DNA from: Deltaproteobacteria bacterium
GTDB taxonomy: Bacteria > Desulfobacterota > Binatia > Binatales > Binataceae
NCBI GenBank assembly: GCA_021831785.1
Contig: JAKBMB010000031.1
Coordinates: 1 to 49,664 of the forward strand
Direction: 5' to 3'
DNA: 49,664 nt
Part shown: piece after piece, positions 3,301 through 44,098 of the stretch
Layout: each line of letters opens with the position of its first letter
Position numbering within the stretch: the stretch's first letter is position 1
Program-made: the position numbers and the translations under genes
Notes under the pieces: model-generated
What the model saw: the letters and a program-made list of their open reading frames with translations, nothing else
Database searches by the model: none
What the model was told of the DNA's origin: nothing

Positions 3301-4551
3301 GCGCGGAAATCCTTCCTCGAGCAAGCGTCATCCCGGCCAGCAAGTGTTCGCTTCAATGGGGCCGCGCTCATTCGAGCGCGGAAATAAGGCGTTGTCCACG
3401 AGGGCAACGTAACCATACTGGCTTCAATGGGGCCGCGCTCATTCGAGCGCGGAAATGTCAAAGTAGTGAGGATGCGATCCTCTTTCTGAATGGGGCTTCA
3501 ATGGGGCCGCGCTCATTCGAGCGCGGAAATCCGCCAAAGGCGCGCTGTTTTATGTAACTAAGTACATGGGGCTTCAATGGGGCCGCGCTCATTCGAGCGC
3601 GGAAATGGGATATCAGCGGGGTTCACTGCCGGCTGCCGGCGCAGCTTCAATGGGGCCGCGCTCATTCGAGCGCGGAAATGTGTTCTGTTATTCCTGGGTC
3701 TGCACAACTAGCTCCCTGCTTCAATGGGGCCGCGCTCATTCGAGCGCGGAAATCTGTCCATTGAGCGGGGGCAGCTTTGATCGTTGGGCTGCTTCAATGG
3801 GGCCGCGCTCATTCGAGCGCGGAAATTTATGACTGGCCGGGTGGGCCCAACTTTGGGTGCGAGCTTCAATGGGGCCGCGCTCATTCGAGCGCGGAAATAA
3901 GTTCGCCGCACGGCAATAAAAGACTGCCTAACGTGCTTCAATGGGGCCGCGCTCATTCGAGCGCGGAAATGCGCCACCGCGAGGACGGACCCGCCCTCGA
4001 ATACTCGCTTCAATGGGGCCGCGCTCATTCGAGCGCGGAAATCCTCCTCGCTCACCGCCTCGCCGCTGCGCGACAGATAGCTTCAATGGGGCCGCGCTCA
4101 TTCGAGCGCGGAAATGCGGAATTAGCGCGGGCACCTACGCGACTTACCTGAGCTTCAATGGGGCCGCGCTCATTCGAGCGCGGAAATGACCGGTTCCTCG
4201 GCACTGCGGGTGCGCGGCTGATCGCTTCAATGGGGCCGCGCTCATTCGAGCGCGGAAATATGGATCACATCTCCGGTTGCCAAGGCAGTGGCGGGAGTGC
4301 TTCAATGGGGCCGCGCTCATTCGAGCGCGGAAATCGCTACGATAGCCGTGGACCGCGCCACAGAGAGGAGCTTCAATGGGGCCGCGCTCATTCGAGCGCG
4401 GAAATCGCTTAAGCAGCCCTTCGAGCAGGCATTTGGAACTGCCGCTTCAATGGGGCCGCGCTCATTCGAGCGCGGAAATCGTCAGATCAAAGCGGCAGCC
4501 CTGGCCGCCGGGAAAGCTTCAATGGGGCCGCGCTCATTCGAGCGCGGAAAT
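364..4551 (-). CRISPR. Type I-G CRISPR array, 58 repeats and 57 spacers
   Basis: A 36-bp repeat recurs 58 times with starts 71-76 bp apart, giving spacers of about 35-40 bp. On the plus strand it begins GCTTCAATGGGG and ends GAGCGCGGAAAT. The core CCGCGCTC-ATTC-GAGCGCGG is a perfect 8-bp stem with a 4-nt loop. Read on the minus strand the repeat ends in ATTGAAGC, which resembles the usual ATTGAAAC 3' end, so transcription is probably leftwards with ATTGAAGC as the 8-nt crRNA 5' handle. The cas genes run in the same direction and the leader lies at the right end. Only three repeats differ from consensus, by one base each (starts 655, 1681, 1755), all in the half away from the leader. The spacer at 1643-1680 is duplicated exactly at 1717-1754. 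The newest spacer should be 4480-4515. Confidence 0.98.
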
Positions 4552-4731: not shown

Positions 4732-6564
4732 TCAGCGCGTCTCGAATCCCACATACCGGTTAAGCTCGCCGCTCAACACCCGCGCCAACAGACGGGCCTG
4801 AATTTCGAGCACGCGCCGGTAGTTGACGCGGTAACCGAACAACGGATGAGTCACCAAGGTATCCATCCGCTGCTCGTAGGCGCGCAGAAACCCTTTTCTG
4901 CCGGCGGGCGTCAGCGCGACGGCCGGACCGACGCTGATGAAATCTTCAAGCTTGACCATACCGGTATTGATCGCGCCGATCACCGCGGAATCGGCGATCA
5001 GCGGCCGGAAGCCTTCGATTAGGTCGAGCGCCAGTGCCGGCCGGCCAAAGCGGGGCTGGTGAAAGAAGCCGATGAAGGGGTCGAAGCCGACGACGTGACA
5101 GGTGATCGTCAAGTCTTTAGTCAAGAGGCTGTAAGCGAACGACAGCAAGGCGTTGACGGGATCGACCGGCGGGCGTCGATTGCGATAGGTGAAGTCGAAC
5201 TCGAAGGGCCCCGCGCGACCGGGATCATCGACGATCTTCAGCATCCCGGCAAAGTTAGCGAAATAGATGCGCGCGGCGTTGCCTTCGATCCCCAAAAGCT
5301 CTTCGAGCGCTTCGGCCTCCAGCGCCGCCTGCGCGTAGCGCTTGAGCTGGATGAGCGCGGCGGGCGGCGGCTCGATATGGTTGCGGCGCAGCATCGTGCG
5401 CTGATTGCGGATCTTCGAAGCGACGAATTCGCGGGCAACGCCGAGGCAAAACAGGGGCCGCTCCGCCAGCGCAAATTGCTGCTTGCGCAGGAACACGTTC
5501 TTCAACCCCAGCCCTTGGGTCAGGCCGTAAAACCAACCCCCGTAGGAGAAATGCGCGATCGGCTTTTCCGACCAGCAAAGGCCCTGCAGCGCGGCGGCGG
5601 TGAACTGCACATTGCCGAACACGTTGACTTGGGAGAGTTCGCCAACGCGCACGTCCTGGACCGGCTTGTCGCGCGCCCTGATCTGCAATACCTCGCCGCG
5701 CTTGCCGACGACCAGGCCGTGGCCGGTGACGTAAAGCGGGCGCAGGTCGTCGCGCGCGGGAAGCAAGCGGCGTAAAGGCTCGTCGGCGCCGCGCGGGGCG
5801 CGCAGCGGGCCGTCCTGGTACTCTTCAAACAGCGAAAGCTGGATGCTGGGAATGGCCGGCTCCAACGAGTCGCAGAGCGCGGTTTCGTCCGGCAGGCAGA
5901 TGCCGACCAGCGAGCATCGCGGGCATTTGGGGCTGTCCACCAACGGCGGCGGAATCTCGCCGCGTTGGGCCAGCGCTCTTGCCTGCTCCAATGCGGCGAG
6001 CGTTTCGCCGGCCAGGGCGTCGTCGATCGCCACGCGCACGCGCTGGCGTGTGGCATGGTAATAGGCGACCGCCTCCTCGCAGCGGTAGCCGTTGTCGCGC
6101 AGGATGAGCGCTTGCGCGCAGAGCTGCGCGCGGTCGGCCGGCCACGCCTGGGGGCCGTCCTCGCTCTCGCGCGGACCGCCCTTCTTGTAGTCCACCGGCG
6201 CTACGGCGCCGCCCTCGCCTTCAACCAGGTCCATCTTGGCGATCAGCCGATGGGTCTCGCTGCTGAGCGTGACCGAGCGGGAATGGATCTGCGCCTCCTC
6301 GTCGGGCGGCGGCAACGGGTCGGACTTGGTTTCGAGCTTCTCGTGGCGCAACGCGCCTTCGACCGTGTCCGCGCTATGGGCGAAGATTGCTTCGACCCAT
6401 TCATAGAAGAAAAGGCGCGGGCAATAGACGAATTCGTTGAGCATCCGCGCGGGCAGGTAGTCCGGAAGATTGACTTGTACTCGGGTGTGCGGCCCAGGGC
6501 CGATCCTCTCCGCTGCCCCGCCTAGCTCGGTCGCGATAGGTTGGAAAGTGGTCGGATCCGACAT
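4732..6564 (-). CDS. cas4-cas1: Cas4-Cas1 fusion, spacer-acquisition nuclease/integrase
   Basis: The protein has 610 residues and two domains, a fusion typical of type I-G and related systems. The N-terminal Cas4 part (about 1-235) shows an Fe-S cluster cysteine in the YCPR motif (Cys48) and a second set CPRCSLVGIC (Cys214, 217, 223), with the RecB-type nuclease motif DYKK at 125-128. The Cas1 part begins near 275 and carries candidate metal ligands Glu427 (GIEGNAARIYF), His502 and Asp514 (ALDLIEGFRP). Cas4 trims and selects prespacers by their PAM. Cas1 with Cas2 inserts them at the leader-repeat junction. It is the last gene of the operon, 20 bp after cas2, and faces its own leader. The start at 6564 is the only Met well ahead of the Cas4 domain, though its ribosome binding site is weak. 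All key residues appear present. Confidence 0.95.
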   Translation of the reverse strand: MSDPTTFQPIATELGGAAERIGPGPHTRVQVNLPDYLPARMLNEFVYCPRLFFYEWVEAIFAHSADTVEGALRHEKLETKSDPLPPPDEEAQIHSRSVTLSSETHRLIAKMDLVEGEGGAVAPVDYKKGGPRESEDGPQAWPADRAQLCAQALILRDNGYRCEEAVAYYHATRQRVRVAIDDALAGETLAALEQARALAQRGEIPPPLVDSPKCPRCSLVGICLPDETALCDSLEPAIPSIQLSLFEEYQDGPLRAPRGADEPLRRLLPARDDLRPLYVTGHGLVVGKRGEVLQIRARDKPVQDVRVGELSQVNVFGNVQFTAAALQGLCWSEKPIAHFSYGGWFYGLTQGLGLKNVFLRKQQFALAERPLFCLGVAREFVASKIRNQRTMLRRNHIEPPPAALIQLKRYAQAALEAEALEELLGIEGNAARIYFANFAGMLKIVDDPGRAGPFEFDFTYRNRRPPVDPVNALLSFAYSLLTKDLTITCHVVGFDPFIGFFHQPRFGRPALALDLIEGFRPLIADSAVIGAINTGMVKLEDFISVGPAVALTPAGRKGFLRAYEQRMDTLVTHPLFGYRVNYRRVLEIQARLLARVLSGELNRYVGFETR

Positions 6565-6584: not shown

Positions 6585-6914
6585 CTACACGCGGTCCTGC
6601 TTGGACGGCGAATCAGGCTCGCCGTCAACGACGATACAGGGGCTGTCGATGGGCGAGTACGCCTGGCCCAGCGCGGTGATCACCCGCTCGCCGCGTCCCT
6701 CGACCGGGCCGAGATCGACGAACAGCACCTGGTCGTCGCGATGGTCGATGATCTCGCTCAGCGCGTGGCGGCAGCGCACGAGGTCGGTCCGCGTGAACTG
6801 GCACTCGAAGATCGAGTACTGGAGATGGTCGCCGAAGTCGCGCATGGTCTTGTAGACGGCGCGCAGCCGCTTGTCCTCGCGAATGTCGTAGCACACGAGA
6901 TACGTATTCCGCAT
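6585..6914 (-). CDS. cas2: Cas2, integrase-complex subunit
   Basis: At 109 residues it has the usual length. The N-terminus YLVCYDIREDKR is the Cas2 ferredoxin-like first strand with the conserved Asp, followed by Cas2-like QYSIFECQFTR. Cas2 dimers bridge two Cas1 dimers during spacer integration. The ATG at 6914 is preceded by AGGAG inside the end of the upstream toxin gene, whose stop is 5 bp away, so the two are translationally close. The first 95 bp of this region (6823-6917) are repeated at 7542-7636 as a truncated copy upstream. The C-terminal tail, rich in Asp and Ser, extends past the typical fold. Confidence 0.93.
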   Translation of the reverse strand: MRNTYLVCYDIREDKRLRAVYKTMRDFGDHLQYSIFECQFTRTDLVRCRHALSEIIDHRDDQVLFVDLGPVEGRGERVITALGQAYSPIDSPCIVVDGEPDSPSKQDRV

Positions 6915-7643: not shown

Positions 7644-9251
7644 TCACAGAGCCGCGAACAGCCCTAAACCATAAAAGCGTCCGCCACCGAGGCAAATGGG
7701 ACCGGGAATCTGTACCAACCGCTTGCTAGCATCTCGCCAGTGAACCCTGACATGGAGGCGAGGAAAGCGTTTCAGATGCTCCGGCGCTCCGTAGCGACTG
7801 GCCAAATCAGTGCCGGGCCAGAAGCCGACGGAGCGCCATTCGAGTTCTGCATAATCCGCCAAGGTTTGTGAGAAACCAGCCTGCATGATCGCCTTGCGGA
7901 GCAGACTGTCGATCCGATCGGCGAGACGGCTCAGCAGCGTTTTTTGTTCAGCGGCGCTGACATCCGTTTTTAAGCGCCGACGATAATGCTCGGGGTCGTC
8001 GTAACCCGGAAGAACTACTGGCGTAACGGTGGCCCATGAAGCCGCGGGCTGAACATAGCGCCGGATCATGGAGTCGGACGCCGGCAACAATGAGAGGAGA
8101 GCGACAGGCTGCGTCTGCTCCTCGTCGATGAGCTCCTGGCCGGGCAGACTCCGCCGCGCCCATGCGACTTGAGCTTCAAGGTCTTGTGCGAAGGACGTAA
8201 GCAGAATGCGACGAATGCTGCCGACGACGCGGGCGTCGGGGGTGGCCCTTGCCTCGATGCTGGGCAGGGGCAGATAGGCGAAGCGTCGCGGACCGACTGG
8301 AATGTGGCCGGCACCGTTCCGCGATTCACCATGGCCCAGGATGAAGACGTTGATGTCCGGTTCGGACCACCCGGCGCGGGTGGCCGCGGCTTTGGCCGCG
8401 TGCCGCATCATGCCCGCGACGGTTAGGCTGGAGCGGGCGGTGTCGAACGCGCGGAACCCGCTCGCGTCGAGCCTGAGCAGGCTAAAGGCCGCTACGGGTC
8501 GGCGTGGGGGATCGATTGCGCGGCGGTAGCGAACGATGCGGTATACGGAAACCGGCGGAGGAGCATTCATAGAGCCGCCGCCGAGGCGGGCAAGGAACTG
8601 CTTGTGGCGACGAATCAGATCGTCGAGCGTGCCGCACGCCGGGACGCGCAGGCCGTCGCCCACTAACGTCTCGTAAGGCAGCCACCGCTCGCCGGGCAAT
8701 TCGTGGGTATGATCAGCGGAAAGAACTGCTCCGTGTCCTATTGCCATGTCGATACCCCAGCCGAGCGCAACCACGCTGCGAGCGATCTCTTTCAGCGTTT
8801 CAACATGGGCGCTGACCTCCGCGCTGTTTGGATCAGGCAAGGGCCACAGATAGTTCACAACCTCATCGTCGAGCAGCAACGTCGGGTGAACCGTCTTCAT
8901 CGTGCGGTGCGTAGCGGGATTGGCATCGCCGGAGTTTGAATAATTTCCTCGGCTCCACGCCCTGGCGACAATGTCCATGGCATTGTTTGGGACCGAGAGG
9001 CGGTAGCTCGTCGCGCTAGCCCAAGCAGGAGTGATCAGAACCGGCGCTGCTTGCCTCTCCAGCCACTCCAAGGCAGATCGAACGCGTGAAGCGAGTGACC
9101 CCGGGCGCGAACGCGCCGCCGCGGCTGCTACCAACGATTGAAATACACGCATCGGTGAGGGAGGCCACTCGGGCCTGTCCCCATCCCCACGACCGTGGAA
9201 CGCGGGGGCGAGAAGGCGGAATGAAAAGCACAGGTAAAAGTCCATGGTCAT
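7644..9251 (-). CDS. csb2: Csb2 (GSU0054 family), Cas5-Cas6-type subunit of type I-G Cascade
   Basis: A 535-residue RAMP protein. The N-terminus (FYLCFSFRLLAPAFHGRG, then WPPSPMRVFQSLVAAA) is characteristic of the GSU0054/Csb2 family. The C-terminus LGGGRFYGLGLF is the glycine-rich RAMP loop that contacts the crRNA repeat. In type I-G the protein is regarded as a Cas5-Cas6 fusion: it caps the crRNA 5' handle and processes the hairpin repeat, matching the 8-bp stem in this array. It begins 6 bp after the csb1 stop, which implies translational coupling. A second Met two codons later (9245) is an alternative start. The truncated cas2 copy follows 10 bp downstream. Confidence 0.92.
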   Translation of the reverse strand: MTMDFYLCFSFRLLAPAFHGRGDGDRPEWPPSPMRVFQSLVAAAAARSRPGSLASRVRSALEWLERQAAPVLITPAWASATSYRLSVPNNAMDIVARAWSRGNYSNSGDANPATHRTMKTVHPTLLLDDEVVNYLWPLPDPNSAEVSAHVETLKEIARSVVALGWGIDMAIGHGAVLSADHTHELPGERWLPYETLVGDGLRVPACGTLDDLIRRHKQFLARLGGGSMNAPPPVSVYRIVRYRRAIDPPRRPVAAFSLLRLDASGFRAFDTARSSLTVAGMMRHAAKAAATRAGWSEPDINVFILGHGESRNGAGHIPVGPRRFAYLPLPSIEARATPDARVVGSIRRILLTSFAQDLEAQVAWARRSLPGQELIDEEQTQPVALLSLLPASDSMIRRYVQPAASWATVTPVVLPGYDDPEHYRRRLKTDVSAAEQKTLLSRLADRIDSLLRKAIMQAGFSQTLADYAELEWRSVGFWPGTDLASRYGAPEHLKRFPRLHVRVHWRDASKRLVQIPGPICLGGGRFYGLGLFAAL

Positions 9252-9257
9252 GTCGCG

Positions 9258-10346
9258 CTACTCGGCGGGTTTGCTTCGGGACTTTCTTGCCTTCCTCTCG
9301 CCATTGCCGGTCTCGCCCGCGACATCTCTCTTAGCTCGCTCCTTGTCGAACTCGACGGTGCGATTTTCACCGACGCCGAAGTGATTCGCGGCGGCACGAG
9401 CATATTTGAGAGCTTCGTCGTGCGTTGTCTTAGCAGGAGCGCGGCGCCCGTCGCCGTACACTTCGACGAACTCATGTGGCTTGTCCGGATCCAGCACGAG
9501 GTTGCATCCCTGCCGGAGATAGCCAGACGGTAAGTGAGTGAACGCGGTCAGGGCGAGACCCAGAATGTAGCGACGAAGGGCCAGCGTCTTACTCTCGTCC
9601 TCGCCTGCCGTAAGCAGATGCAGTGCAGCGAGGTGGAGCGACGCATCCCGCCGGATTCCACCGGTGACGATGACGCCGCCGGGAGTGCCGGAAGCCGGGA
9701 CGTGCACAAAGCCTCGTTCGGCGTAAGCATCCTTCGTCTTCTTGTCAGGCGGTTCGTCCAGCAGTTGAAGGTTCATGTACTCTGCCGCCGGCACATATTG
9801 AGCCGAGCGTGTCAGCTTGCGAACATTGAACGCTCGGATCGCCGAAGCGATCAGCCGTGGCAACTTGGCTTGGGTGTCGCGGGAATCCCACGCCCCAAAA
9901 ACGAGCGAAGTAGGCGCAATCTTTGCCAGTGGTCCAGCGTCGCCATTTAGCACCGCCTTGAACGCCTTCTGCAGATCCTCCTGCAACGCCGAGCAGCGGA
10001 CAATGGCGTCGCCGGCGCGATGACCCGCCTCAAGCAGGTTCACGCTTTTTTCTCCGGCTTTTACGACGATCTGCGGTACAAGCGCTGCATATTCTGCCTT
10101 TGCAAACGACGGTTCGATCCGGTTCGCCTGAGAGCCGACGCTATCGATCAGACAGACGTTGCTGCCGTCCGGCAAGTCATCAACGTTGTAGCCACCCTCG
10201 AAGGTGCCGTCTTGGCTGGCGGCGAACGTTGGCGGAAAGATCACCCCATCCGGTCCTTCGACAGAGATCAGGTGCTCACGCACGACCAAGGCGGCTGGTC
10301 CTGTGTCCTCTAACCAGGGGTCAAATTTGTTCAACAGATCATTCAT
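9258..10346 (-). CDS. csb1: Csb1 (GSU0053 family), Cas7 backbone of type I-G Cascade
   Basis: The 362-residue product begins MNDLLNKFDPWLED. The segment GGYNVDDLPDGSNVCLIDSVG followed by SQANRIEP matches the Csb1/Cas7 family signature. Several Csb1 copies are expected to line the crRNA spacer. The open frame extends 76 codons further upstream, but that part overlaps csb3 in another frame. The ATG at 10346 overlaps the csb3 stop codon by 4 bp (ATGA), which fixes the start. The C-terminus is a basic, low-complexity tail (KARKSRSK). It belongs to a continuous operon cas3-csb3-csb1-csb2. Confidence 0.93.
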   Translation of the reverse strand: MNDLLNKFDPWLEDTGPAALVVREHLISVEGPDGVIFPPTFAASQDGTFEGGYNVDDLPDGSNVCLIDSVGSQANRIEPSFAKAEYAALVPQIVVKAGEKSVNLLEAGHRAGDAIVRCSALQEDLQKAFKAVLNGDAGPLAKIAPTSLVFGAWDSRDTQAKLPRLIASAIRAFNVRKLTRSAQYVPAAEYMNLQLLDEPPDKKTKDAYAERGFVHVPASGTPGGVIVTGGIRRDASLHLAALHLLTAGEDESKTLALRRYILGLALTAFTHLPSGYLRQGCNLVLDPDKPHEFVEVYGDGRRAPAKTTHDEALKYARAAANHFGVGENRTVEFDKERAKRDVAGETGNGERKARKSRSKPAE

Positions 10347-11161
10347 CGTGGGCTCCTCGCAAATGCTGTGGCTGTGGTGAATGCCTTGTGCTTCCTCTGG
10401 TCTGTACGAAAGGCGCTCCGGAAACGGAAGCCGCGGGCTCCGGCATGTGCCAGTAATCCGCAGGCAGCAAGCGATGCGATACTCGTCGCCAGCGGAATTG
10501 TCCAGGTATAGTAATCGAAGACGCGTGGGGTCTCGGTTGGCATGGGGCGGAAGCGCTGGAGCCCCACCAGACACAAGAACTCAACCGCCGGATAGGCCAA
10601 GTTGGTCATGTGAAGGCTATCAGGCGAAAAGCCGATATCAATCGGCTGAGCGCTCGACCCTCGGCGAGCATCGAAGTAGAAGGGTTCGACCTTGTTATCC
10701 GGCTCGGCCGGGTCGTATACAACCGTCGCGTAATCAAACAGCGCGCCGGTCTGCGACTCTTCCCAATGCAGCACGCTTTGCATCGCGTGCGCGATACGAA
10801 CATTGCGCATACTGCCGGCCCATACCTTTAGCTGTTTGCCTCCCCCACGATCGTCCTTCCACCAGTCGAGTCGCAAGTCAAACGGACTTGGAATTTCAAT
10901 CGGAGATGAAGCTTCGTCCTCCGGGTCAGCGGGTCGCACAAACGCTCCAGCAACTGCGCGCAAAAGGCTGCCAAGGCTTCGTTCGGTTTGATCATCGCAA
11001 TCGATTGGCCGAGCGAAAAACGCGCCCTGCTCGAACCAGCCTTCGGCGCCACCCCACAGCCGATCGGCGAGCTCCAGCAGGCCGCAGCAGGCGAAAAACT
11101 GCCCCGGATTAGTCGGGTCGACGCGGACGCTAATGGCGGGTTCTGGAGTCCTTTTCATCAA
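10343..11161 (-). CDS. csb3: Csb3, Cas8-like subunit of type I-G Cascade
   Basis: A 272-residue protein with the N-terminal pattern DPTNPGQFFACCGLLELADR, typical of Csb3 of type I-U/I-G systems. The family occupies the place of the large Cas8 subunit, probably in PAM recognition and Cas3 recruitment; that role is inferred from family position. The gene starts 11 bp after the cas3 stop and ends in a 4-bp overlap with csb1. Two adjacent Met codons (11161 and 11158) are possible starts. No catalytic motif is expected or seen. Confidence 0.88.
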   Translation of the reverse strand: MMKRTPEPAISVRVDPTNPGQFFACCGLLELADRLWGGAEGWFEQGAFFARPIDCDDQTERSLGSLLRAVAGAFVRPADPEDEASSPIEIPSPFDLRLDWWKDDRGGGKQLKVWAGSMRNVRIAHAMQSVLHWEESQTGALFDYATVVYDPAEPDNKVEPFYFDARRGSSAQPIDIGFSPDSLHMTNLAYPAVEFLCLVGLQRFRPMPTETPRVFDYYTWTIPLATSIASLAACGLLAHAGARGFRFRSAFRTDQRKHKAFTTATAFARSPR

Positions 11162-11172
11162 GTGTCGCGCTC

Positions 11173-13887
11173 TTATTGTGTACCGTCCACTGCGGCCGGT
11201 TCGGCTTCGCGCGGGTCGTTGGCTTGCGATGCGAGCGCATCGGCAGCGCGTAGCAATGATTCCAAATATGCGAGGCCCCAGCGTCCGTACTTGCGCTGTA
11301 GACGCGCAAAACGGCGAGTAACCCTGCGCGCAATCTCGGCCGCGTCCTTTTCCGTATGCTCGGGATCGAACGCTTCGTCCGCGGGAAAATGCGGACGGGC
11401 GCGCCCGTGGTGCGCCGCGATCAAGTGCAGAACCACATCCCGCACATTGCGGTCAGAATCGAGGAACTCGCGGCATCGTGATACATCGATCAGCGATCCA
11501 AACTCGTGGCGGAAGTTACCCAGGTCGATGGGCCGCATCTTGCCGCCAGATTTGGCCAGCACTCGCTGTGGGTAAGCGCTGTTGCCGATCGACCTCTGCC
11601 AGACTTTGCGGTGCTTTCCGAGATCGTGCCAGCGTGCCGCCAGGTTGAGCGCGGAGGCTTCCGGGTCGTGCAGACCAAGCTTGTCGACAAGTACTTGCGC
11701 AAATTGCTTTGCCGATTCGAGGTGTGGTTCTAGCTCTTGGGGCTGACGGGCATTTCGCGATCCGTCGTCGTCGGCAGAGCGAGGCCGAACGTGCCACTTC
11801 CAATAACGGCGGGGGCGGAGACTCTGCTCGTCCTCATCCGTTTCATCCTCGGCGTCAGGCCGAATATCTATGGTCCGCACCAGCCGCATGCCCTCGGGCG
11901 GGTTTTCATCGTCCCATAGTCGACTGCGGCGAGGATTGTTCTTTTCGTCCACCCATTGGTCCGCAACGTCGTAGGAGGCACGGTGTGATTCGTCGAAGCG
12001 GGCTTCGCCGTCGAGCGTGCCGGTCGGGCGACCGCCTTTGTCGAACTGTAGTCCCCCGGCTGTCGGGGGCAGAAGCACGGTCCGGTCGTTCAGAGCCTGG
12101 TTCCCCTCTTCGGTGAGTTTCTCCAGCGTGGTCACGGTTACCGGGGCGTTGTCCGTGACAGCCCAGACGGGAGCTGCCGGGTACGCGGATGCCAGACTCT
12201 TGAGGTGTTTGAAAACCCGGTCGGTGCGGTCTCGTAGCAACTCGTGCGGTTTGAGCGGATAGTCGTCGAGCAGATCGTCGGGCTCGTACCTTTCGCGCAG
12301 CTCTTCAGTTAACACCTCGACTTCCTCGCGCCACGCAACATAAGTCTCGGGCGGCTCTCCCTCGGTGACGCCGTGCAGCCACTCGGCGACGGGCGGGCGG
12401 CCCGGCAGCTTTTCGCGGACTGAGGTGAGCGCCCAGGTGTCGAATAGAACGTCCGTTGTAGGAAGAATGGCGGGCGGCGCAGTGAAGGCGTCCTGTCGAT
12501 CAATGAGCAGGAGGCCGTTCAGTGCTGCCGGGCTAGCATCGTAGCGCTGGTCGTCGCGTTTCGGAAGCCGCTGCAACAGCGCGAGAGTCCGCTTGCAGGC
12601 TTCATCGAACTGCAATTGCTGCTCGGTTTTCTTCTTCGACTTGGATTTGCTTCCTTCGTTGTTCGCTCTGTCCTCGTCCGCTGTTTGTCCGGCCTTCGCA
12701 GCGGTCACGTAAGCTACGTCAATCCGCGCATCGCCGTTGCCGAAACGGTTCACGCGACCGAGGCGTTGCGCCATGCTGTCGAAGGGAGTCAGATCGCAAA
12801 CGAGGTGATCGGCGGAAATATCGACGCCGACTTCGCCCGCACAGGTGCATACCAGATAGACCGGGCCCTGCTGGGGCGTCGTCGCGGGGTCGGGCATGAA
12901 GCGAGCGAAGATAGGATCTTCCCTGGCCATCGAGTCACGCTCGATTCCACGCATCGTACCGGTAAGCGTCTGCACGGGTAGCTTCGCTCTGTGGAGTTGT
13001 TCTGTAACCTTCTGCACGTGATCGAGCTTGCGAACGAAGATCAGGATCGCCTGGCCGCCGTCCTTGTATTCCAGTGCGAGTTGAACGACCTTATCCGGGA
13101 TACCTCTCTCGTCCTCGACGGGGTGGAGCGCAAGCCGTTTTTTCGCGTTGAACCGCTTACTTACTTCCGGATGCTTGCCATCCTTGTTGGTGAAAATAGG
13201 CGCCTCGCAGTTGCTACCGGAACGCGACGTGGCGGTCAGCGCCATCACTCGGAAGCGGCGGAAGTCGGAACTTCGCCGCTGCTCCGATTCGATGGCGGTC
13301 ACAAGCTCCTGAAATGCGGGTTCGAGGTGGGCCTCGTCATGAACCAGCAGCGCGTCCTGGCCGAGAAACCCCGCGTGCAGCGGGCGTGACTTGAATCCAC
13401 AACCGTAACCTGCGAAAAGCAAGCGGCTACCAATCATGTCCACGGTGCCGACAATTACGGCGGGTCGGGCGGGGTCATTGCGCCATTCAGCGTTGTCCGC
13501 AAACTGGCCGCGAAGAGTGCTGATCGCTAGCGCAGCGTCAGACTGTTGCGACGCGAGCGACCGCAAAGCTGCGGTCACCGGTTCAAGTTCAGATTTGCCG
13601 AGAGCTTGCCGCAGATGCTCCGCTTCACGCGTGGCCTGGTCAACGACGGTCCGCCGATTGACAACGTAGATGAGGCGGCGCGGAAAATCGTCCAGGGTTT
13701 CCGCGCGGATATGATGCGCCAGCGCCAGTAGCCAAATCGTGATGACCGAAGTCTTCCCCAGGCCAGTTGGAACATCGCAGGTCGCCCGGAATTGTTTCTG
13801 CTGAAACTCGGCGAACAGGGCCTCCTGCCACGGGAACGGCGGGTGGCCGGTGGCCCCCAAGAAAAGCTCAGAAAAAGAAAGCATCAT
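11173..13887 (-). CDS. cas3: Cas3 helicase-nuclease with C-terminal HD domain
   Basis: At 904 residues this is the interference effector. The superfamily 2 helicase comes first: Walker A PTGLGKTS at 40-47, DEAH at 184-187, and VNRFGNGDARID as a motif VI-like segment. The HD nuclease is at the C-terminus: WHDLGKH near residue 754, a His in GNFRHEFGSL, and AAHHGRARPHF near 825. This helicase-HD order is reversed relative to the common HD-helicase Cas3 and is typical of type I-G. It degrades target DNA after Cascade binding. It is the first gene of the cas operon. The second Met is an alternative start. The motifs look intact. Confidence 0.95.
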   Translation of the reverse strand: MMLSFSELFLGATGHPPFPWQEALFAEFQQKQFRATCDVPTGLGKTSVITIWLLALAHHIRAETLDDFPRRLIYVVNRRTVVDQATREAEHLRQALGKSELEPVTAALRSLASQQSDAALAISTLRGQFADNAEWRNDPARPAVIVGTVDMIGSRLLFAGYGCGFKSRPLHAGFLGQDALLVHDEAHLEPAFQELVTAIESEQRRSSDFRRFRVMALTATSRSGSNCEAPIFTNKDGKHPEVSKRFNAKKRLALHPVEDERGIPDKVVQLALEYKDGGQAILIFVRKLDHVQKVTEQLHRAKLPVQTLTGTMRGIERDSMAREDPIFARFMPDPATTPQQGPVYLVCTCAGEVGVDISADHLVCDLTPFDSMAQRLGRVNRFGNGDARIDVAYVTAAKAGQTADEDRANNEGSKSKSKKKTEQQLQFDEACKRTLALLQRLPKRDDQRYDASPAALNGLLLIDRQDAFTAPPAILPTTDVLFDTWALTSVREKLPGRPPVAEWLHGVTEGEPPETYVAWREEVEVLTEELRERYEPDDLLDDYPLKPHELLRDRTDRVFKHLKSLASAYPAAPVWAVTDNAPVTVTTLEKLTEEGNQALNDRTVLLPPTAGGLQFDKGGRPTGTLDGEARFDESHRASYDVADQWVDEKNNPRRSRLWDDENPPEGMRLVRTIDIRPDAEDETDEDEQSLRPRRYWKWHVRPRSADDDGSRNARQPQELEPHLESAKQFAQVLVDKLGLHDPEASALNLAARWHDLGKHRKVWQRSIGNSAYPQRVLAKSGGKMRPIDLGNFRHEFGSLIDVSRCREFLDSDRNVRDVVLHLIAAHHGRARPHFPADEAFDPEHTEKDAAEIARRVTRRFARLQRKYGRWGLAYLESLLRAADALASQANDPREAEPAAVDGTQ

Positions 13888-35117: not shown

Positions 35118-35193
35118 GACGTGCGTTATCGGCGAATTGGCTCGAGAGGCATCACCTTTGGCTAGACCCTCCCCCGCTCAAGTGACCGTCTAT

Positions 35194-35199
35194 ATTATA
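35194..35199 (-). promoter_or_regulatory. Candidate -10 box of the aromatic operon
   Basis: A perfect TATAAT on the minus strand stands about 77 bp upstream of the first operon gene in an otherwise GC-rich stretch. The -35 at 17 bp spacing (ATGTGC) is weak, so an activator may be needed. Confidence 0.35.
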
Positions 35200-37381: not shown

Positions 37382-38055
37382 GATTACCTTTCGGCCGGAA
37401 TTTCCGTACATGGCCCCCCCTCCAATAGCGCACGTGTACAACAAAGCCGTGCCGTAGGGCAAGTTTTGGAAACTTTTGTCGTCGCCGAGGCTCCGGTCGG
37501 CCGGTGAAGCGGCCTGTTCCATCATTTCGGCGGGCCGAAACCCAGATGCGAGCCAATCTGAGCCGATTGGTGAAGGCACCTCTCCATCCCCTCTCTGCTC
37601 GCGCTCGGTCTGGGAGCTGTCACCGCGAGTGGCTATCCCGCCGGCACCGGTAGCAGCGCGATCTTCCGCAGCATGCCGCCAAACAGCCCCGCCGCGTCAG
37701 ATGCTCCTCGGCCAACAGCAACCAGTAGTAACGCGCATATTTGATGAGCCGTCTGCCGGCCTTCACCAAGCGCTGTGGCAGACTGGCCGGCGACCAGTTG
37801 CCGACCCATGCCGGCAGCGCCAGCCGCCGCCACAGGTTGCCGAAGTTATAGGCGAGCACGCTCAGCCACAGCCGCACCCGGTTGGCCTGGAAGCGGTGGC
37901 CGCTAAGCCGCGCCAGCGCGACCGCCTGCTTGCCCTCTTTGATCCACTGCTCGGCTGTGCCGCGCTTGTTGTAGAACCGCACCACTGCCCGGCTTTCAGC
38001 CGCCAGGTTGGTCACGATGAAGCCCACGCGCGAGAACAGCTCCCCGAAGTGGAAC

Positions 38056-38085
38056 CCAACCCTTCGACTGCGCTCAGGGCAGGCT
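38056..38085. repeat. Short palindromic repeat inserted in the IS1380 transposase gene (copy 1)
   Basis: CCCTTCGACTGCGCTCAGGG with flanking GCAGGCT separates two conserved transposase blocks: RRVVAK upstream and FHFGELFSRVGFIVTNL downstream. The ends CCCT and AGGG are complementary. Confidence 0.7.
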
Positions 38086-38854
38086 CTTCGCCACCACTCG
38101 CCGCGCCCGCTTCAGCAACTCCGCAATCTTGCGCTCCAAGTTACGATTGTCTGGAAGGCGGGTGGCGTACCGCATCTCCCGCTCTTCGAGCGACCCATAG
38201 ATCTCCGGCCGCGCGAAGGCCGCGTCGCCGCGAAAGGCCACTTCCTTGCCTTGTGCCGGTTGCCGGTCGATCTCCGGCAACAGCAGTTGCGCCCAACCCT
38301 CGGCGCTGTGGACGTTGCCGGGCCGCAGCTTCACCGCCAGGCAGTCGCCCGCGCCATTAAACAGCAGCAGCGGATAGTAGCAGGTGGACTCGAAGTGGCC
38401 CTTGTAGGCACTCTGCTCCTGCTGGCCATAGACCGGGACTTCAGTACTGTCCATATCCAGCACGATGCGCCGAGGCGAATCGATAGCTTCGGCCCGGGCG
38501 ACTAACTCTCGATTGAGCGCGGCCAGACCGGCGAGGTTTCCCTCTCGCGTCGGCGGCTCCGTCTCGCGTCAGCGGCTCCGTCTCGAACGACTGCAAGCGC
38601 GAGATCAAAGCCGCGCCGCGCTCCCAAATCTTACGCGCGCCGATGAGCCGGAAAGTCGGATCCTGAGAGAGGCGTTCGGCGTCGTTAACGTCTTCGTAAC
38701 CTCCCAAGCGGCTATAGATCGACTGCCCAGCAGGTCGGCCAGCGGCAATTGGATATTCTTGCCCCGGCGGGAATCGTTCAAGTGCCGGTCCACGAGTTCG
38801 CTCAAGCCGAGACGTTCGTCCAGCTCGCGCACCAGAATCAGACCACCGTCGGAA

Positions 38855-38879
38855 GCTTGCCCTGAGGGCTTCTCGAAGG
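38855..38879. repeat. Short palindromic repeat inserted in the IS1380 transposase gene (copy 2)
   Basis: On the minus strand CCTTCGAGAAGCCCTCAGGG plus CAAGC interrupts VQGARVT and SDGGLILVREL, a block normally continuous in this family. The insert is 25 bp and shifts the frame. Confidence 0.7.
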
Positions 38880-39250
38880 GTCACTCGTGCGCCCTGGACT
38901 TCGACTCGCAGGGAACTGTTGAACGAGAACCGAAAGAGCCCTTGTTGCCTCTCACCCACCGCCGCTTCCCTCCGCACCACCCCGATCGCATCCAAACCCA
39001 ATTCTGTCAGGCCTTTTCGCGCGTTTTACCAGATTGGTGCTTCACTGAGAAAATGGAAATCCGGGTTAAATAGTCGAGAGCCAAGTCGAACGGCCGGACC
39101 TAAGCCAAGCAGTTGAGCACGGTCCGGATAGCTCGAAGCGGCCTGCGGCGCGCGCGGGGTAGAGCTTGACCAGCGGCGAGTTGAGCGCATAAAAAATTCG
39201 TAAGCCGCTTCTTCGGCGGCCTACACAGCGCGATCGCGCGGGGAGACAAC

Positions 39251-40219
39251 ATGACACAAGAATTCACGGCGGAAATGGTGCGCGAACTGGCCCGCGAATG
39301 CTGCAACTGGGGCAGATGGGGCGCCGAGGACGAGCTCGGAACCGTCAACTACATCACGCCCGAGAAGATCCGCGAGGCCGCTACGCTGGTTCGCCAAGGC
39401 AAAGTAATTTCGCTCGCCATTCCGTTTGACGGCGACGGCCCACAGGGCAGAACGAGCCTGCCGTTTAGCGCGCATCAACGTTTCAACCCGATTCATTTGA
39501 TGAGCCGCAGCGGGGCGGACTCGCACGTCGGCGCCCAAGCCCATCGGCGGCTTCATACCGCCGATGACGTCATCATAATGCCTACCCAAGCGGCGACGCA
39601 GTGGGACTCGCTGGCTCACGTGTTCTTCGAAGGCAAGATGTACAACGGCTACGACGAGCGCTTGGTCAGCGGCTTCGGCGCCAAGAAGAACAGCATCACC
39701 AATCTAAAGGACAAGGTCGTGACGCGCGGCGTGCTGCTGGATATAGCGCGCTACAAAGGGAAAAAGTGGCTCGCGCCCGGCGAGGCGATTTATCCTGAGG
39801 ATCTCGACGGATGCGCCGCCCAAGAGAACGTCACGATCGGCGCCGGCGACGCCGTGCTGGTACGCACGGGCCAAATGACGCAGGTCAAGGAGCGCCAAAG
39901 CTGGGATGACTATGCCGGTGGAAGCGCCCCCGGGCTAAGCGTGACCGCCGCGCGCTGGATTTTCGCGAAGCAGGTGGCCGCGATGGCGACCGATACCTGG
40001 AGCACCGAGGTGCTGCCGAGCGAAGGCGCGCAGATTTTTCTGCCGCTCCACATCATCGGTCTGGTTCACATGGGCTTGCTGATCGGTGAGATTTTCGACC
40101 TGGATGAGCTGGCGCGCGACTGCGCGCGCGACGGATGCTACGAGTTCATGTTCGTCGCGCCGCCGCTGCCGATAACCGGCGGGGTCGCCTCGCCGATCAA
40201 TCCCCAGGCAATCAAATAA
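39251..40219 (+). CDS. Cyclase-family (kynurenine-formamidase-like) metal hydrolase
   Basis: A 322-residue protein of the putative cyclase family (PF04199). The beginning CCNWGRWGAEDELGTVNYIT and the block TQWDSLAHVFFEGKMYNG correspond to the metal-binding region, where many relatives have HxGTHxDxP; here the histidine set is partly replaced by TQWDSLAH. The family hydrolyses cyclic or linear amides and esters such as N-formylkynurenine. GGGGAGA stands before the ATG at 39251. It is monocistronic; its neighbour upstream is the IS1380 relic. The substrate is unknown. Confidence 0.85.
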   Translation: MTQEFTAEMVRELARECCNWGRWGAEDELGTVNYITPEKIREAATLVRQGKVISLAIPFDGDGPQGRTSLPFSAHQRFNPIHLMSRSGADSHVGAQAHRRLHTADDVIIMPTQAATQWDSLAHVFFEGKMYNGYDERLVSGFGAKKNSITNLKDKVVTRGVLLDIARYKGKKWLAPGEAIYPEDLDGCAAQENVTIGAGDAVLVRTGQMTQVKERQSWDDYAGGSAPGLSVTAARWIFAKQVAAMATDTWSTEVLPSEGAQIFLPLHIIGLVHMGLLIGEIFDLDELARDCARDGCYEFMFVAPPLPITGGVASPINPQAIK

Positions 40220-40486
40220 GGGTCGTTCCCAGCTCGTCCGCCAATGACGCTCGGGGGTCGTGTCCGCCAAGTATCAGCAGCGCGTTCATTGCCGGCAAAC
40301 GCGCCCGAGCGAGAACTCCCGGATACGGCTCATAAGTTGGCCCGCCGCAACAGCCGTTATGCCGGGACTCCTCGCTACGCTCGGAATGACAAGGAGTTCA
40401 CGCAATCACGGGCCATCCCCAGTACCATTCCGCGTCGGCCCAAGCGTAGCGAGGGTGCCGCGCGAGCCGTTCGGTTATCAGATTTT
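40220..40486. other. Intergenic region with a dispersed genomic repeat
   Basis: No gene. Around 40360-40395 the text CTCGCTACGCTCGGAATGAC resembles a short interspersed repeat common in GC-rich environmental genomes, and GCGTAGCGAGGG at about 40443-40454 is a partial inverted copy. The region runs into the relic CRISPR leader. Confidence 0.35.
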
Positions 40487-40592
40487 CGACCAGCGGCGGA
40501 TCCCGCTCGCAAAGCGGCTCATTGCTCTTTGAAAATCAGGGACTTGCAGGCGACCTATTTCCGCGCTCGTCAGAACGCGGTCCCATTGAAGC
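40487..40592 (+). CRISPR. Relic CRISPR leader plus one diverged repeat
   Basis: Positions 40487-40556 align without gaps to the leader next to the main array in minus orientation: 57 of 70 bases match, and 37 of the 38 bases of the core (about 40517-40554) agree. The leader is followed by a single 36-bp repeat, 40557-40592, with five mismatches to consensus. The stem is kept (CCGCGTTC pairs GAGCGCGG with one G-T wobble) while the loop changed from ATTC to TGAC. No second repeat follows; 11 bp further on the guanine-deaminase-like gene ends. Its polarity, leader to repeat, is rightwards, opposite to the main array. It is a solitary leader-repeat unit. Confidence 0.88.
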
Positions 40593-40603
40593 AGTCATAC
40601 GCC

Positions 40604-41983
40604 TCATCGCTTAGCAGAGTTGCGTTGCTGCCGCTCGTAACAGAGCCGGCCTCGAACATACGTCTGCTCGACATTCCTGTCATCTGACAGAAACACGAGC
40701 CGCGAAAGGAGTTTATCTACCTCTCCTTCTCCTCGGTTCGCCAACGATTGATCGAACGACGAAAGATCTAAAACAACAAAATCGGCGTCCTTGCCGGGTT
40801 CCAGACTCCCGGTAGTCCTCCCAAGCCCCAGCGCTCTCGCTCCTCCCAAGGTAGCCAAGTAGAGGACCAGCCCAGGCGTAACGTCGAAACCACTATTAGC
40901 CAGCGGCAGACACCGCGCGTTGTGAACATAAATCGCTGCTTGCATTAGTGAGAAAGGGCTTAGCGTCGGACCGCCGGCGACGTCCGAGCCGAGACCGACC
41001 CTATGACGCATTTGTAGCAGCTCCGCCAGATGCATCAGGCCGCTCTTCAGAAAGAGATTCGAGGTCGGGCAGTGCACGAGGCACGCTTCAGCGGCCAAGA
41101 GCGCCCTCTGCTCGTCCTGGTCAATATGTATAGCATGCGCGAGCAACGTCTTCGGGCCTAACAGCCCCGCTCTCGCGTAAACGTCCGTATAGTTGCGGGA
41201 CTCCGGGAAAAGCTGCTTCACCCACTTTATCTCGCCCGAGTTCTCGCTTAGATGAGTCTGTACGTACGCTCCTCGCTCGCGTGCGAGAGCACCCACTTTA
41301 TCCAAGAGCTCCTGGCTGCATGACGGTGCAAAGCGGGGCGTGAAAGCGTACAGCAACCTGTCGTCGTCCTGGCCGTGCCACGCCTTACACAACTGGTCGC
41401 TTTCAGCGATCGAAGTGCGCGTATCTTCGCGCAAGTAGTCGGGCACGTTGCGGTCCATCATGACCTTGCCAATGATCGCCCGTATGCCCTTCCTCTCTGC
41501 CCATTCAAAGACCTTCCACGTGCTGTCCGCTCGCACTGATGTGTAGATCGCCGCCGTAGTAACGCCGTAAGCAAGCAGGCGATCGAAGAAGATTGGAGAG
41601 AGGGAGTCCGCAACCTTAGGCGTAAACTCCTTTTCGGCAGGAAAGATATATGCATTCAGCCAGTCTAGAAGTTCCCTACCGTATAAGCCGATTGCCGGGT
41701 ACTGGGGCAAATGAACGTGCGCATCTATAAAGCCTGGTACGATAAATTTATCGGATAGATCGATTTTCTCTGCTTCTGAATGCTCGCGAGCTAGATCAGC
41801 ATAGTCGCCGACGCTGACAATTCTGCCGTTCGTATCGATTACTAAGGCACCGTCGTCGTACAACCGCCAGAAACCACTCCCCGGAGCCGGCCGCCCGGTG
41901 CCTTCAGGCGTAAGGAGTTTCGCTCGAAACAGTTTTTGGCTCATTTCCGCTGAGGCTTGTCGGTTCATCGCTACGATCTCCAT
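40604..41983 (-). CDS. Amidohydrolase, guanine-deaminase-like
   Basis: A 459-residue zinc amidohydrolase. The metal motif HVHLPQY follows PGFIDA, as in guanine deaminase, and other ligands lie in VQTHLSEN, LAHAIHI and GLGSDVAGG. The C-terminal GSLEPGKDADFVVLDL is typical. It probably converts guanine to xanthine and ammonia; related deaminases cannot be excluded. The start at 41983 overlaps the preceding small membrane-protein gene by 13 bp, and a second Met at 41968 is an alternative. It is the last gene of a minus-strand group and faces the relic CRISPR repeat. Confidence 0.88.
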   Translation of the reverse strand: MEIVAMNRQASAEMSQKLFRAKLLTPEGTGRPAPGSGFWRLYDDGALVIDTNGRIVSVGDYADLAREHSEAEKIDLSDKFIVPGFIDAHVHLPQYPAIGLYGRELLDWLNAYIFPAEKEFTPKVADSLSPIFFDRLLAYGVTTAAIYTSVRADSTWKVFEWAERKGIRAIIGKVMMDRNVPDYLREDTRTSIAESDQLCKAWHGQDDDRLLYAFTPRFAPSCSQELLDKVGALARERGAYVQTHLSENSGEIKWVKQLFPESRNYTDVYARAGLLGPKTLLAHAIHIDQDEQRALLAAEACLVHCPTSNLFLKSGLMHLAELLQMRHRVGLGSDVAGGPTLSPFSLMQAAIYVHNARCLPLANSGFDVTPGLVLYLATLGGARALGLGRTTGSLEPGKDADFVVLDLSSFDQSLANRGEGEVDKLLSRLVFLSDDRNVEQTYVRGRLCYERQQRNSAKR

Positions 41984-42183
41984 GACAATGTGACGAATGA
42001 CACGACGACGATGAGGATCAGCAAATAGATGGTGCTAGCGATCACGCGGGAGTATGTTGTACCTCCGGCCAGCCACAGGTAAACGACTGACGTAACAGCC
42101 GCAGCGATATACAGCGCAACGGCAAAGCCAACGTATAGGAGGCGTCCCAACCGGCCTGCTGCAGCAAGCGGGTTTCTATCCAA
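41971..42183 (-). CDS. Small membrane protein with two predicted membrane helices
   Basis: A 70-residue frame with hydrophobic stretches LLYVGFAVALYIAAAVTSVVYLW and VIASTIYLLILIVVVSFVTL. No family was recognised. It overlaps guaD-like 41968/41983 by a few bases and follows the 42.2-kb gene closely, so the three are probably co-transcribed. Base composition is lower in G+C than the flanks. Confidence 0.6.
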   Translation of the reverse strand: MDRNPLAAAGRLGRLLYVGFAVALYIAAAVTSVVYLWLAGGTTYSRVIASTIYLLILIVVVSFVTLSWRS

Positions 42184-42204
42184 AGCGGTTGTGAGCCCCC
42201 GTCC

Positions 42205-42906
42205 CTACGGCTTTTCGAAAAGGTCTCGGTCCAATTGAGTCCCAAGATGCACCGCGCGCTTCAAAAGATCGGAATACAGAGAGACAGCGAAAATGACATA
42301 AGCCGTTGCGGGTATTGCAGCCAAGCTTACCCAAAAGACTCTCATCGGGATCGGTGAGCCGCTGGCGCCACCGGTTAAATGAACTAGCGAAAAAGGGGTT
42401 ACCAAGATCGCAATTACGAGAGTTGCGCCCTTTGCAAGGATCTCTACGACCAGACTGTCGAGGTTACCGATCGTCTGACGGACTCCGTCGTAATACTGAA
42501 GGTCCATGTCCACAACACCCTGCTTCAGAAGCATGAGCTTTCCTCTTTCAGCGGCGAGGAGCCGCCGCTGCTCGCCGAATGTCTCCTCACGGTTACCCGG
42601 CTCTTTTCCGATCCAGTTCGAGGAGCTGGCGTGATTCCATGGCCTTTTTTTAAGCTTTGCCATTTCGCCGTCGAGCTTCACCCGTTCATTGCTGTTGAGC
42701 ACCACTTTTGCTGCCGCGATTTCAATTGCTTTGCACCAATCTTTTTCCGCGTGGCTCAAAAGTATGTCCTTTGCCTCCATCCTGAGAGTCTTGTTCATCT
42801 CGAAAGCATTCCACTCGCCGCTGTGACTGGTCAGCCGCGAACCGGAGTCGTAGGCTGTGACGAGCTGGATGAGCTTTCCCCCCTCTCCGGAAAAAAGGTC
42901 CGCCAC
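42205..42906 (-). CDS. Membrane protein part with C-terminal two-helix anchor (downstream part of a split gene)
   Basis: The frame from GTG 42906 gives 233 residues: a long charged, helix-rich region (KTLRMEAKDILLSHAEKDW, then LAAERGKLMLLKQGV), then two hydrophobic segments (ILAKGATLVIAILVTPFSLV and VFWVSLAAIPATAYVIFAVSL) and a short tail. The layout resembles two-helix membrane effectors such as SLATT-type proteins, but no motif proves this. The reading frame is continuous with the upstream 75-codon ORF except for one TAA at 42916-42918. The GTG has no good ribosome binding site, so independent translation is doubtful. Confidence 0.6.
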   Translation of the reverse strand: MADLFSGEGGKLIQLVTAYDSGSRLTSHSGEWNAFEMNKTLRMEAKDILLSHAEKDWCKAIEIAAAKVVLNSNERVKLDGEMAKLKKRPWNHASSSNWIGKEPGNREETFGEQRRLLAAERGKLMLLKQGVVDMDLQYYDGVRQTIGNLDSLVVEILAKGATLVIAILVTPFSLVHLTGGASGSPIPMRVFWVSLAAIPATAYVIFAVSLYSDLLKRAVHLGTQLDRDLFEKP

Positions 42907-42915
42907 CCAAGCGAG

Positions 42916-43143
42916 TTACTCACGCCACACCGAATCGGCGACCTCGTATCGCAAAGTGGTAGATACCGCGCTAAGGGTGCGGCTAGTGATGCGAATCATC
43001 TCGGCAAGAGCGGCGCGGCTCGCATTCTTGCTGCGTGCTTCATCCTCGATCTTCTGCGCCCGAAGGATGAAGCGATAGCCGAAATAGCTGCCAACCACGG
43101 CGCTCAAGGGCGCAATTACTACGCTTGTTAGAATCTCGGGCAC
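42916..43143 (-). CDS. Membrane protein part with N-terminal helix (upstream part of a split gene)
   Basis: A 75-residue frame opens MPEILTSVVIAPLSAVVGSY, one membrane segment, then a charged helix (KIEDEARSKNASRAALAEM). It ends ADSVWRE at TAA, and the same frame continues LAWVADLFSGEGGK after the stop. Joined, the two parts would form one protein of about 310 residues with one N-terminal and two C-terminal membrane helices. A single CAA-to-TAA change would explain it. Family unknown. Confidence 0.6.
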   Translation of the reverse strand: MPEILTSVVIAPLSAVVGSYFGYRFILRAQKIEDEARSKNASRAALAEMIRITSRTLSAVSTTLRYEVADSVWRE

Positions 43144-43315
43144 TTGGCCTCGCTCTCGTTAGGAAACCACCTTGAACATATCCGCTTGGCGGTGTTCTGC
43201 CGAGGCGGAGCGGGAAGAGGCGTGATTGCTGATGCTCTCCAGCAGTGAACGCTCCTCGCTAATCCGCTCCAGCGCATCGCTGGTGCGCAGTGCCTGATGG
43301 CCAGGCGGCGGAGAG

Positions 43316-44098
43316 CTATTGCTTCAGGAAGGCGAGCACGCGGCGGCAGAATTCCTCGGGCTTCTCGTACATCACCATGTGTGCCGCGCCTTCAATAGCC
43401 TCATAGCGGCAGTCGCGGATGTGTCTTTGAAATTCGCCGGCGTAAGCTTTCGGAATCAGCCGGTCGGACTCGCCCCACAGCAGCAGAGTCGGCGCGGCAA
43501 TCCGGTAAGCGCGCTTTTTGAGCCCCCGCTCCGGGATCGGCCATAAAAGCTTGGTCGCCATGGCCAGGCGCTTGGCGCGCTCGACGTACATCGTGGTCAG
43601 CGCCTGCGGGTCATCCGGCGTCATCATCAGCAGCTTGGCCACCGCGGATCCCGGGTCGTGGAAAAGCAGCGCCGGCAACTCCTTGAAATCGGCGGCAAAA
43701 AAGTCCGGAATCGGATGCCGGTCGAGCCAGAAGCCGGCCGGCGAGACCAGCACCAGGCGCTTGACTCGATGAATGTCGAACGCGGCTAGTTCGGCCGCGA
43801 GCATCCCGCCCATCGAGTGCCCCACCACGTGGGCCGCAGGGATCCCGAGCTCGTCCATCAGCTCGTGATAAAAAAGCACGGCGTCGAAAACGTCCTCGAT
43901 GAGCTCGCCTCCGGTTGATTCGCCGTAGCCGGGCAGATGGGGCGCGACCACCTTGAACTCACGTCCCAGTTGTTCGAGGAATGATTCAACGCCTAGCAGC
44001 CCCCCGGCGCCGTGGAGAAACAAAAGCGGCTCGCCGCGGCCGAACTCGTGCACTTCGACCTCATGTCTTGCGGAATTCAACCGGCGCAGGGATTTCAT
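43316..44098 (-). CDS. Alpha/beta-hydrolase
   Basis: A 260-residue hydrolase. The nucleophile elbow GHSMGG, the acid in LLWGESDRLIPK and the His in IEGAAHMVMYEKPEEF make a complete Ser-Asp-His triad, and LHGAGG supplies the oxyanion hole. It belongs to the group containing meta-cleavage-product hydrolases and haloperoxidase-like esterases. ATG 44098 overlaps the stop of the LLM oxidoreductase by 4 bp (ATGA), so the pair works as one unit, possibly oxidation followed by hydrolysis of the same compound. Confidence 0.9.
   Translation of the reverse strand: MKSLRRLNSARHEVEVHEFGRGEPLLFLHGAGGLLGVESFLEQLGREFKVVAPHLPGYGESTGGELIEDVFDAVLFYHELMDELGIPAAHVVGHSMGGMLAAELAAFDIHRVKRLVLVSPAGFWLDRHPIPDFFAADFKELPALLFHDPGSAVAKLLMMTPDDPQALTTMYVERAKRLAMATKLLWPIPERGLKKRAYRIAAPTLLLWGESDRLIPKAYAGEFQRHIRDCRYEAIEGAAHMVMYEKPEEFCRRVLAFLKQ

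Follow-up and report, generated by a model that had tools for sequence, protein, structure and literature searches.

The closest described counterparts of the locus analysed here are type I-G CRISPR arrays, isolated or solitary repeat units, and the ectopic repeats of CreTA and CreR. The type I-G array of M. barkeri took up prespacers, according to PMC10504553. In CreA and CreR units, a partial match of the pseudo-spacer guides the complex to a promoter, as described in PMC9458426 and PMC12737573. Our literature search for a described array made of a leader and one repeat gave no usable result, with subscription journals mostly outside its scope.

The window analysed, 49,664 bp long, is the whole contig G000:C3; the genome comprises 34 contigs and 3.68 Mb in total. 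The features of the window are collected in Table 1. Local alignment of positions 40400-40700 gave one gapless 110-bp match (40483-40592, + strand) to the resident leader and first repeat, whose counterpart in the main array is 4625-4516 on the − strand. The polarity is therefore opposite to that of the main array, as the sequence-only reading had stated. It had placed the unit at 40487-40592; the end was confirmed, and the start moved to 40483. Identity of the solitary and resident leaders was 60/74, and 57/70 over the 70 bp adjoining the repeat, which reproduced the earlier count exactly. The repeats were identical at 31/36 positions, so the five changes reported before were found again. No second repeat was found near the unit, the next best 36-mer in 38-44 kb reaching 21/36, in agreement with the claim of exactly one repeat.

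Table 1. Coordinates of the solitary unit, its surroundings and the resident type I-G locus in the window.
Feature	Coordinates	Strand	Basis
Resident type I-G array, 58 repeats, 55 identical	364..4551	-	
Resident leader; box A reads TCGCTCGAAAA	4552..4625	-	
cas4-cas1 fusion (Cas4/1)	4732..6564	-	
cas2	6585..6914	-	
Type I-G effector genes, whole block	7644..13887	-	
csb2	7644-9251	-	
csb1	9258-10574	-	
csb3	10343-11161	-	
cas3	11173-13887	-	
Lineage-specific segment holding the solitary unit	40219..43316	.	missing between the same two genes in G001, G015
Solitary leader, 74 bp aligned	40483..40556	+	alignment to resident leader
Solitary box A, CCGCTCGCAAA	40503-40513	+	alignment of leaders
Solitary box B, GCTCTTTGAAAA	40524-40535	+	alignment of leaders
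Single repeat, 36 bp, loop GTCA, one C.A stem mismatch	40557..40592	+	repeat comparison, fold
Pseudo-spacer position after repeat; enters 3' end of guanine deaminase gene	40593..40629	+	
Guanine deaminase gene; stop 11 bp from repeat	40604..41983	-	NF006679, TIGR02967 above cut-off
233-aa ORF, without family in Pfam, NCBIfam, PHROGs	42205..42906	-	

The leader alone gave an alignment score of 84, compared with a maximum of 29 in 500 shuffles and 30 for the second-best location in the window. Across the 3.68-Mb genome the unit matched with E 1.5e-23. At E<=10 there were two full leader-repeat places, the solitary unit and the main array, and the other matches were repeats of the main array and five short chance matches. 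The unit is thus solitary as claimed. No further leader copy was found in the genome, which rules out a dispersed repeat. Shuffles and genome search together exclude the outcomes the sequence-only reading had named against itself, a leader dispersed without repeats or a background-level match. Rfam had no match anywhere in the window. The unit lies 36 kb from the resident array and 34 kb from the Cas4/1 and Cas2 genes. The second Cas1 of the genome belongs to an I-A-like system on contig C17, whose repeat differs. Inside the resident array one repeat-spacer unit was duplicated, giving two adjacent 74-bp units with 99% identity (1607-1754).

Leader quality was judged against other leaders of the family. 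An exact pattern of box B, gap and repeat, run on the GTDB genome collection, gave 11 stretches. Six were labelled Acidobacteria or Acidobacteriota, four Bryobacterales, Solibacteraceae or Terriglobia, which are acidobacterial groups, and one Deltaproteobacteria, the last being the array contig of G017. Together with the arrays of relatives, 17 leaders were available, 10 of which came from the pattern demanding box B. Thirteen were aligned (alignment A1); L097, L101 and L102, in which box A departs after CTCGC, and L103, a near-copy of L096, were left out, so box A appears more uniform in A1 than across all 17. Two boxes stood out, CCGCTCGCAAA (A) and GCTCTTTGAAAA (B). The CTCGC of box A was present in 16/17 leaders, the exception being the resident one (CTCGA). 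The TTTGAAAA of box B was also present in 16/17, except in G018, in a set where 10/17 were selected by box B itself. Both boxes are intact in the solitary leader, so it has the family leader of a type I-G array.

When the profile was built without the solitary and resident rows, these two leaders scored 48.6 and 39.7 bits, respectively. The 11 other leaders ranged from 33.1 to 56.7 bits with a profile that still included the two rows; on this mixed footing the solitary leader ranks 4th and the resident 9th of 13. At the seven differences between the two leaders in the comparable part, the others agree with the solitary leader at five and with the resident at two. When seven random changes were made to the resident leader, none of 10,000 versions reached 48.6 bits (mean 24.8). 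The starting point of this simulation is an already changed leader, so it establishes only that the solitary leader did not arise by decay from the resident leader in its present form; it does not prove selection. A recent copy of today's resident leader was rejected, since the boxes are intact in the solitary unit and box A is changed in the resident. The suggestion of a recent copy in the sequence-only reading failed on the five of seven differences and on the loop of the repeat, which is that of a different I-G array. Its other point, that the leader is better preserved than the repeat, held: the leader score exceeds that of the resident, and the repeat stem is down one pair. The unusual trait of the unit is that its leader lies nearer to the consensus of the family than the active leader does.

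The solitary repeat belongs to the repeat family of the type I-G array with one stem pair lost. It is identical to the repeat of the G052 I-G array at 34/36 positions, more than to that of its own resident array. The loop is GTCA in the solitary repeat and in the G052 array, and GAAT in the resident array. Two changes look derived in this comparison, a stem G to A, which gives the C.A mismatch, and a C to T. The fold of the solitary repeat had an energy of −10.1 kcal/mol, versus −15.8 and −16.6 kcal/mol. The C to T change is shared with the resident repeat at 655 and with G017's first repeat. Losing a stem pair is what a decaying repeat, or a terminal one, would be expected to do.

The unit lies in a segment of about 3.1 kb flanked by a cyclase gene (39166-40218) and an alpha/beta hydrolase gene (from 43316). 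In G001 and G015 these two genes are adjacent, with about 120 and 190 bp between the aligned parts, and the 3.1 kb of G000 stayed unaligned in both. G001 is of the same genus, with 82% DNA identity in the cyclase region. Both flanks are syntenic, which makes a chance mis-assembly of the contig unlikely. GC content was 0.565 in the segment versus 0.615 in the window, and the best match of the guanine deaminase among 33 genomes searched, its own excluded, was 52% identical. The six resident Cas proteins gave no match with E below 0.15 in 40219-43316; a leftover cas operon in the segment was rejected on this best value of 0.15. A type I-G array has adaptation genes beside its leader and two or more repeats with spacers; here no such genes adjoin the leader and one repeat is present.

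The solitary unit had no match in plasmid or phage collections, its repeat form none in IMG/VR, and the two ORFs of the segment no phage family. Carriage of this particular unit by a phage or plasmid is improbable within these collections, though the segment around it is lineage-specific. The repeat does resemble that of the host, as in solitary repeats of mobile elements. In G001, a match to the leader-repeat model described below was absent among the matches listed, and csb2 was absent at E 1e-10 in a search that overlooked the csb2 of G003. At about positions 40360-40396 the window holds a short intergenic repeat that is dispersed, the genome having similar copies of it at eight further places; it lies upstream of the leader and does not extend over it. 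A second stretch of the window (35119-39165), containing a pro-kumamolisin-type peptidase gene, is missing in G001 between the same neighbours.

BLAST with the leader alone lacked sensitivity across the class, most of its matches outside the known arrays being short and due to chance; a sequence model of leader and repeat was therefore built. It was trained on the solitary unit and 12 others and run with strict filters on 148 genomes of the class, at least 19 of which were matched at E 0.001. Strong full-length matches (44 bits or more) occurred, among the matches listed, at 10 places in nine genomes (G000 twice, G052, G003, G017, G018, G041, G042, G112 and G083), six of which had supplied training rows. 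Nine of these ten listed places open an array (five or more repeats counted); the solitary unit alone has a single repeat. Weaker full-length matches were listed for G069, G085 and G118. At least 11/148 genomes have csb2, in a count that overlooked the one in G003.

Lone repeats were also observed without a leader. L030 (G017:C175) differs from the array repeat of its own genome, and L117 (G147:C14) is of the G052 type and was the sole G147 place among the matches listed. In L119:1454-1533 (G046:C57), the first 16-19 codons of cas2 are joined directly to one repeat, and an alignment of 19 aa with the resident Cas2 shows 84% identity; this fusion reads as the scar of a collapsed I-G locus. In L118 (G069:C5), box B and one repeat stand 254 bp before the first repeat of an array whose own leader apparently lacks box B, and this is possibly an ectopic regulatory unit.

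Outside the class, L103 (5690-5757) has a leader with one perfect repeat, so the arrangement is not unique to the window, and L096 (1478-1618) has a leader, two repeats and one spacer. The two come from related Acidobacteria, and the 1.2 kb upstream of L096 is 90% identical to L103. Both units stand at the end of type III-C genes (cas10, cmr4 and cmr3 in L103; cmr3 in L096). The resident Cas proteins had no match within the 8 kb examined at these loci, and no further repeat of the family was found in the two genomes. A pattern search of 396 genomes of the phylum of L103, drawn evenly from a larger group, returned only L103's own genome, a result with little bearing on how frequent the arrangement is. 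Viral contigs carry repeats of the solitary unit's family without a leader, single in L175, L181 and L182 and two in L176. On another viral contig, L174:8732-9580 (IMGVR_UViG_3300037225_000673), leader boxes of I-G type precede a 12-repeat array with a quite different 36-nt repeat, which adjoins a Cas12u/Cas12f-like gene; cas1 was absent among the seven ORFs scanned.

The solitary unit is best read as a spacerless type I-G array consisting of a leader and one repeat; its anatomy, its motif quality and the empty site in relatives are directly visible. We infer spacer loss, and the history that we hold to be probable is that the segment brought in a second I-G array, whose spacers were then lost by repeat recombination, leaving the leader with one repeat. 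This second array, not copied from the resident array in its present form, would have arrived in a horizontally acquired segment of about 3 kb. Recombination between its first and last repeats would then have removed the spacers, and the product would be a leader and one slightly decayed repeat. With a leader of consensus quality, and with Cas4/1 and Cas2 of matching kind encoded in the genome, the site might still accept a spacer in trans. Collapse of this kind is suggested by the repeat lying nearer to the G052 array, by the absence of the segment in two relatives together with its lower GC content, and by a leader that scores above the resident with both rows left out beside a repeat that lost one stem pair. 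I-G collapse in relatives points the same way (the cas2-repeat fusion of G046, the lone repeats of G147 and G017), as does the leader with one repeat in L103 beside the one-spacer state in its near relative L096. Against it, no leftover spacer, no second repeat (38-44 kb) and no cas fragment (40219-43316) were found that would prove the former presence of an array, and a freely decaying remnant is not expected to keep its leader better than the active array unless it is young. We regard the unit as real and ordinary in kind, an empty I-G array and probably a remnant. A collapsed second array or duplicated acquisition platform was among the options of the sequence-only reading and is the one that fits; its interpretation as a whole is partly supported. 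If the unit is only a remnant, it documents the shrinkage of I-G loci, either to one repeat (G046, G147, G017) or to a leader and one repeat.

A live but empty landing pad, maintained or recently delivered in working order, into which the resident Cas4/1-Cas2 would at low frequency insert spacers in trans, is unlikely in our judgement. Both leader boxes are intact, the leader scores above the resident one, and matching Cas4/1 and Cas2 are encoded in the genome. According to PMC10504553, a plasmid with the full leader and one repeat works as an I-G substrate in vitro in the M. barkeri system, and L103 and L096 look like the zero- and one-spacer states of one locus. However, the unit has no spacer, its repeat stem is weakened, and the array that filled is the resident one, 36 kb away with 58 repeats. 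There is likewise a small chance of a portable, ready-to-fill pad, in which a consensus-quality leader moves without cas genes, with the resident Cas4/1-Cas2 loading it in trans. This idea draws on leaders bearing these boxes that precede minimal arrays next to III-C genes, and on the one that precedes an array with a different repeat beside the Cas12-like gene on the viral contig. Should the site still serve as a substrate, it would be a natural zero-spacer array, in which the first acquisition could be compared with a full array of the same cell. It would also show that leader-repeat pads move between genomes without cas genes.

A duplication within the lineage, which would have copied the resident leader and first repeat while the resident leader was still of consensus quality and never formed an array, we consider quite unlikely. 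When only the leader is considered, the closest sequence found is the resident leader, gapless over the 74 bp, and other leaders match only with gaps; the GGACTTGCAGGCGAC adjoining the repeat is common to both. An old duplication is possible on these grounds, and so is import from a relative, as far as the alignments go. The loop of the solitary repeat is that of G052 and differs from the resident array, and the unit sits in a low-GC segment whose deaminase has so distant a best match, which speaks against a local origin.

A regulatory crRNA-like unit (CreR/CreA) or a decoy repeat, the remaining suggestion of the sequence-only reading, is highly improbable, since the sequence after the repeat matches the cas3 upstream region and the main leader at chance level. 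One diverged repeat outside an array does recall the known ectopic repeats, as described in PMC9458426. In the pseudo-spacer test, the first 15 nt after the repeat were compared with five regions of the window. The best match was 11/15 just upstream of the guanine deaminase start (20/500 shuffles as good), which is not significant for one of five regions tested. The cas3 upstream region gave 9/15 (493/500), the main leader stretch 9/15 (290/500), and the unit's own flanks 10/15 (187/500) and 9/15 (468/500). The unit is neither in nor beside a cas operon, and a sigma-70-like promoter was not found on the + strand in 40200-40750. As the pseudo-spacer matches no cas promoter in the window regions tested, a CreR or CreTA role is unsupported and this identity was rejected.

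The same kind of test gave a strong candidate on contig C17 of this genome, unlike at the solitary unit. C17 carries the I-A-like system with cas3, cas8a, cas7, cas5 and cas1. Immediately before cas3, two degenerate repeats surround one pseudo-spacer (L143:2805-3140, G000:C17). The first 15 nt of this pseudo-spacer match a site 247 bp upstream at 13/15, positions 6 and 12 being the only mismatches, and the site lies just after a TTGACA element seen by eye. G017, from another genus of the family, shows the same arrangement at about 4840-5145 of L172 (G017:C246), and its pseudo-spacer again reaches 13/15, mismatched at the same two positions. Type I guides leave positions 6 and 12 unpaired. At position 11 a change is present in guide and target alike, so the two covary between the genera. 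CCT stands beside the target in G000 and CCC in G017. For these 13/15 matches, 1/1000 and 0/1000 shuffles were as good, respectively; stretches of 20 and 34 nt were not significant, so only the seed matches. Between the target and the mini-array there is a tRNA-Leu(TAA). Among ten other stretches carrying the C17-type repeat, the cas3-linked repeat pair occurred only in the one from G017. By its repeats and seed match, the C17 mini-array looks like a CreTA or CreR unit.

Compared with known systems, the solitary unit is like a type I-G (formerly I-U) array with a Cas4/1 fusion in its leader boxes, repeat family and leader-repeat spacing, and unlike it in having a single repeat, no spacer and no adjoining cas genes. 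As reviewed in PMC8616872, isolated or orphan arrays and solitary repeat units likewise have a repeat remote from cas genes that resembles one belonging to a complete system of that genome; the solitary unit differs from them by its complete leader and by showing no sign of a virus or plasmid in the collections searched. With the CreTA/CreR ectopic repeats, as presented in PMC9458426 and PMC12737573, it shares a diverged repeat outside an array, whereas its pseudo-spacer has no promoter match, it is not adjacent to cas genes and it carries a full acquisition leader. A further likeness is with L103 (leader and one repeat) and L096 (leader and two), whose leader boxes and repeat family are those of the solitary unit; the single repeat is shared with L103. 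These two differ from the solitary unit in following cas10-cmr4-cmr3 and in having perfect repeat stems.
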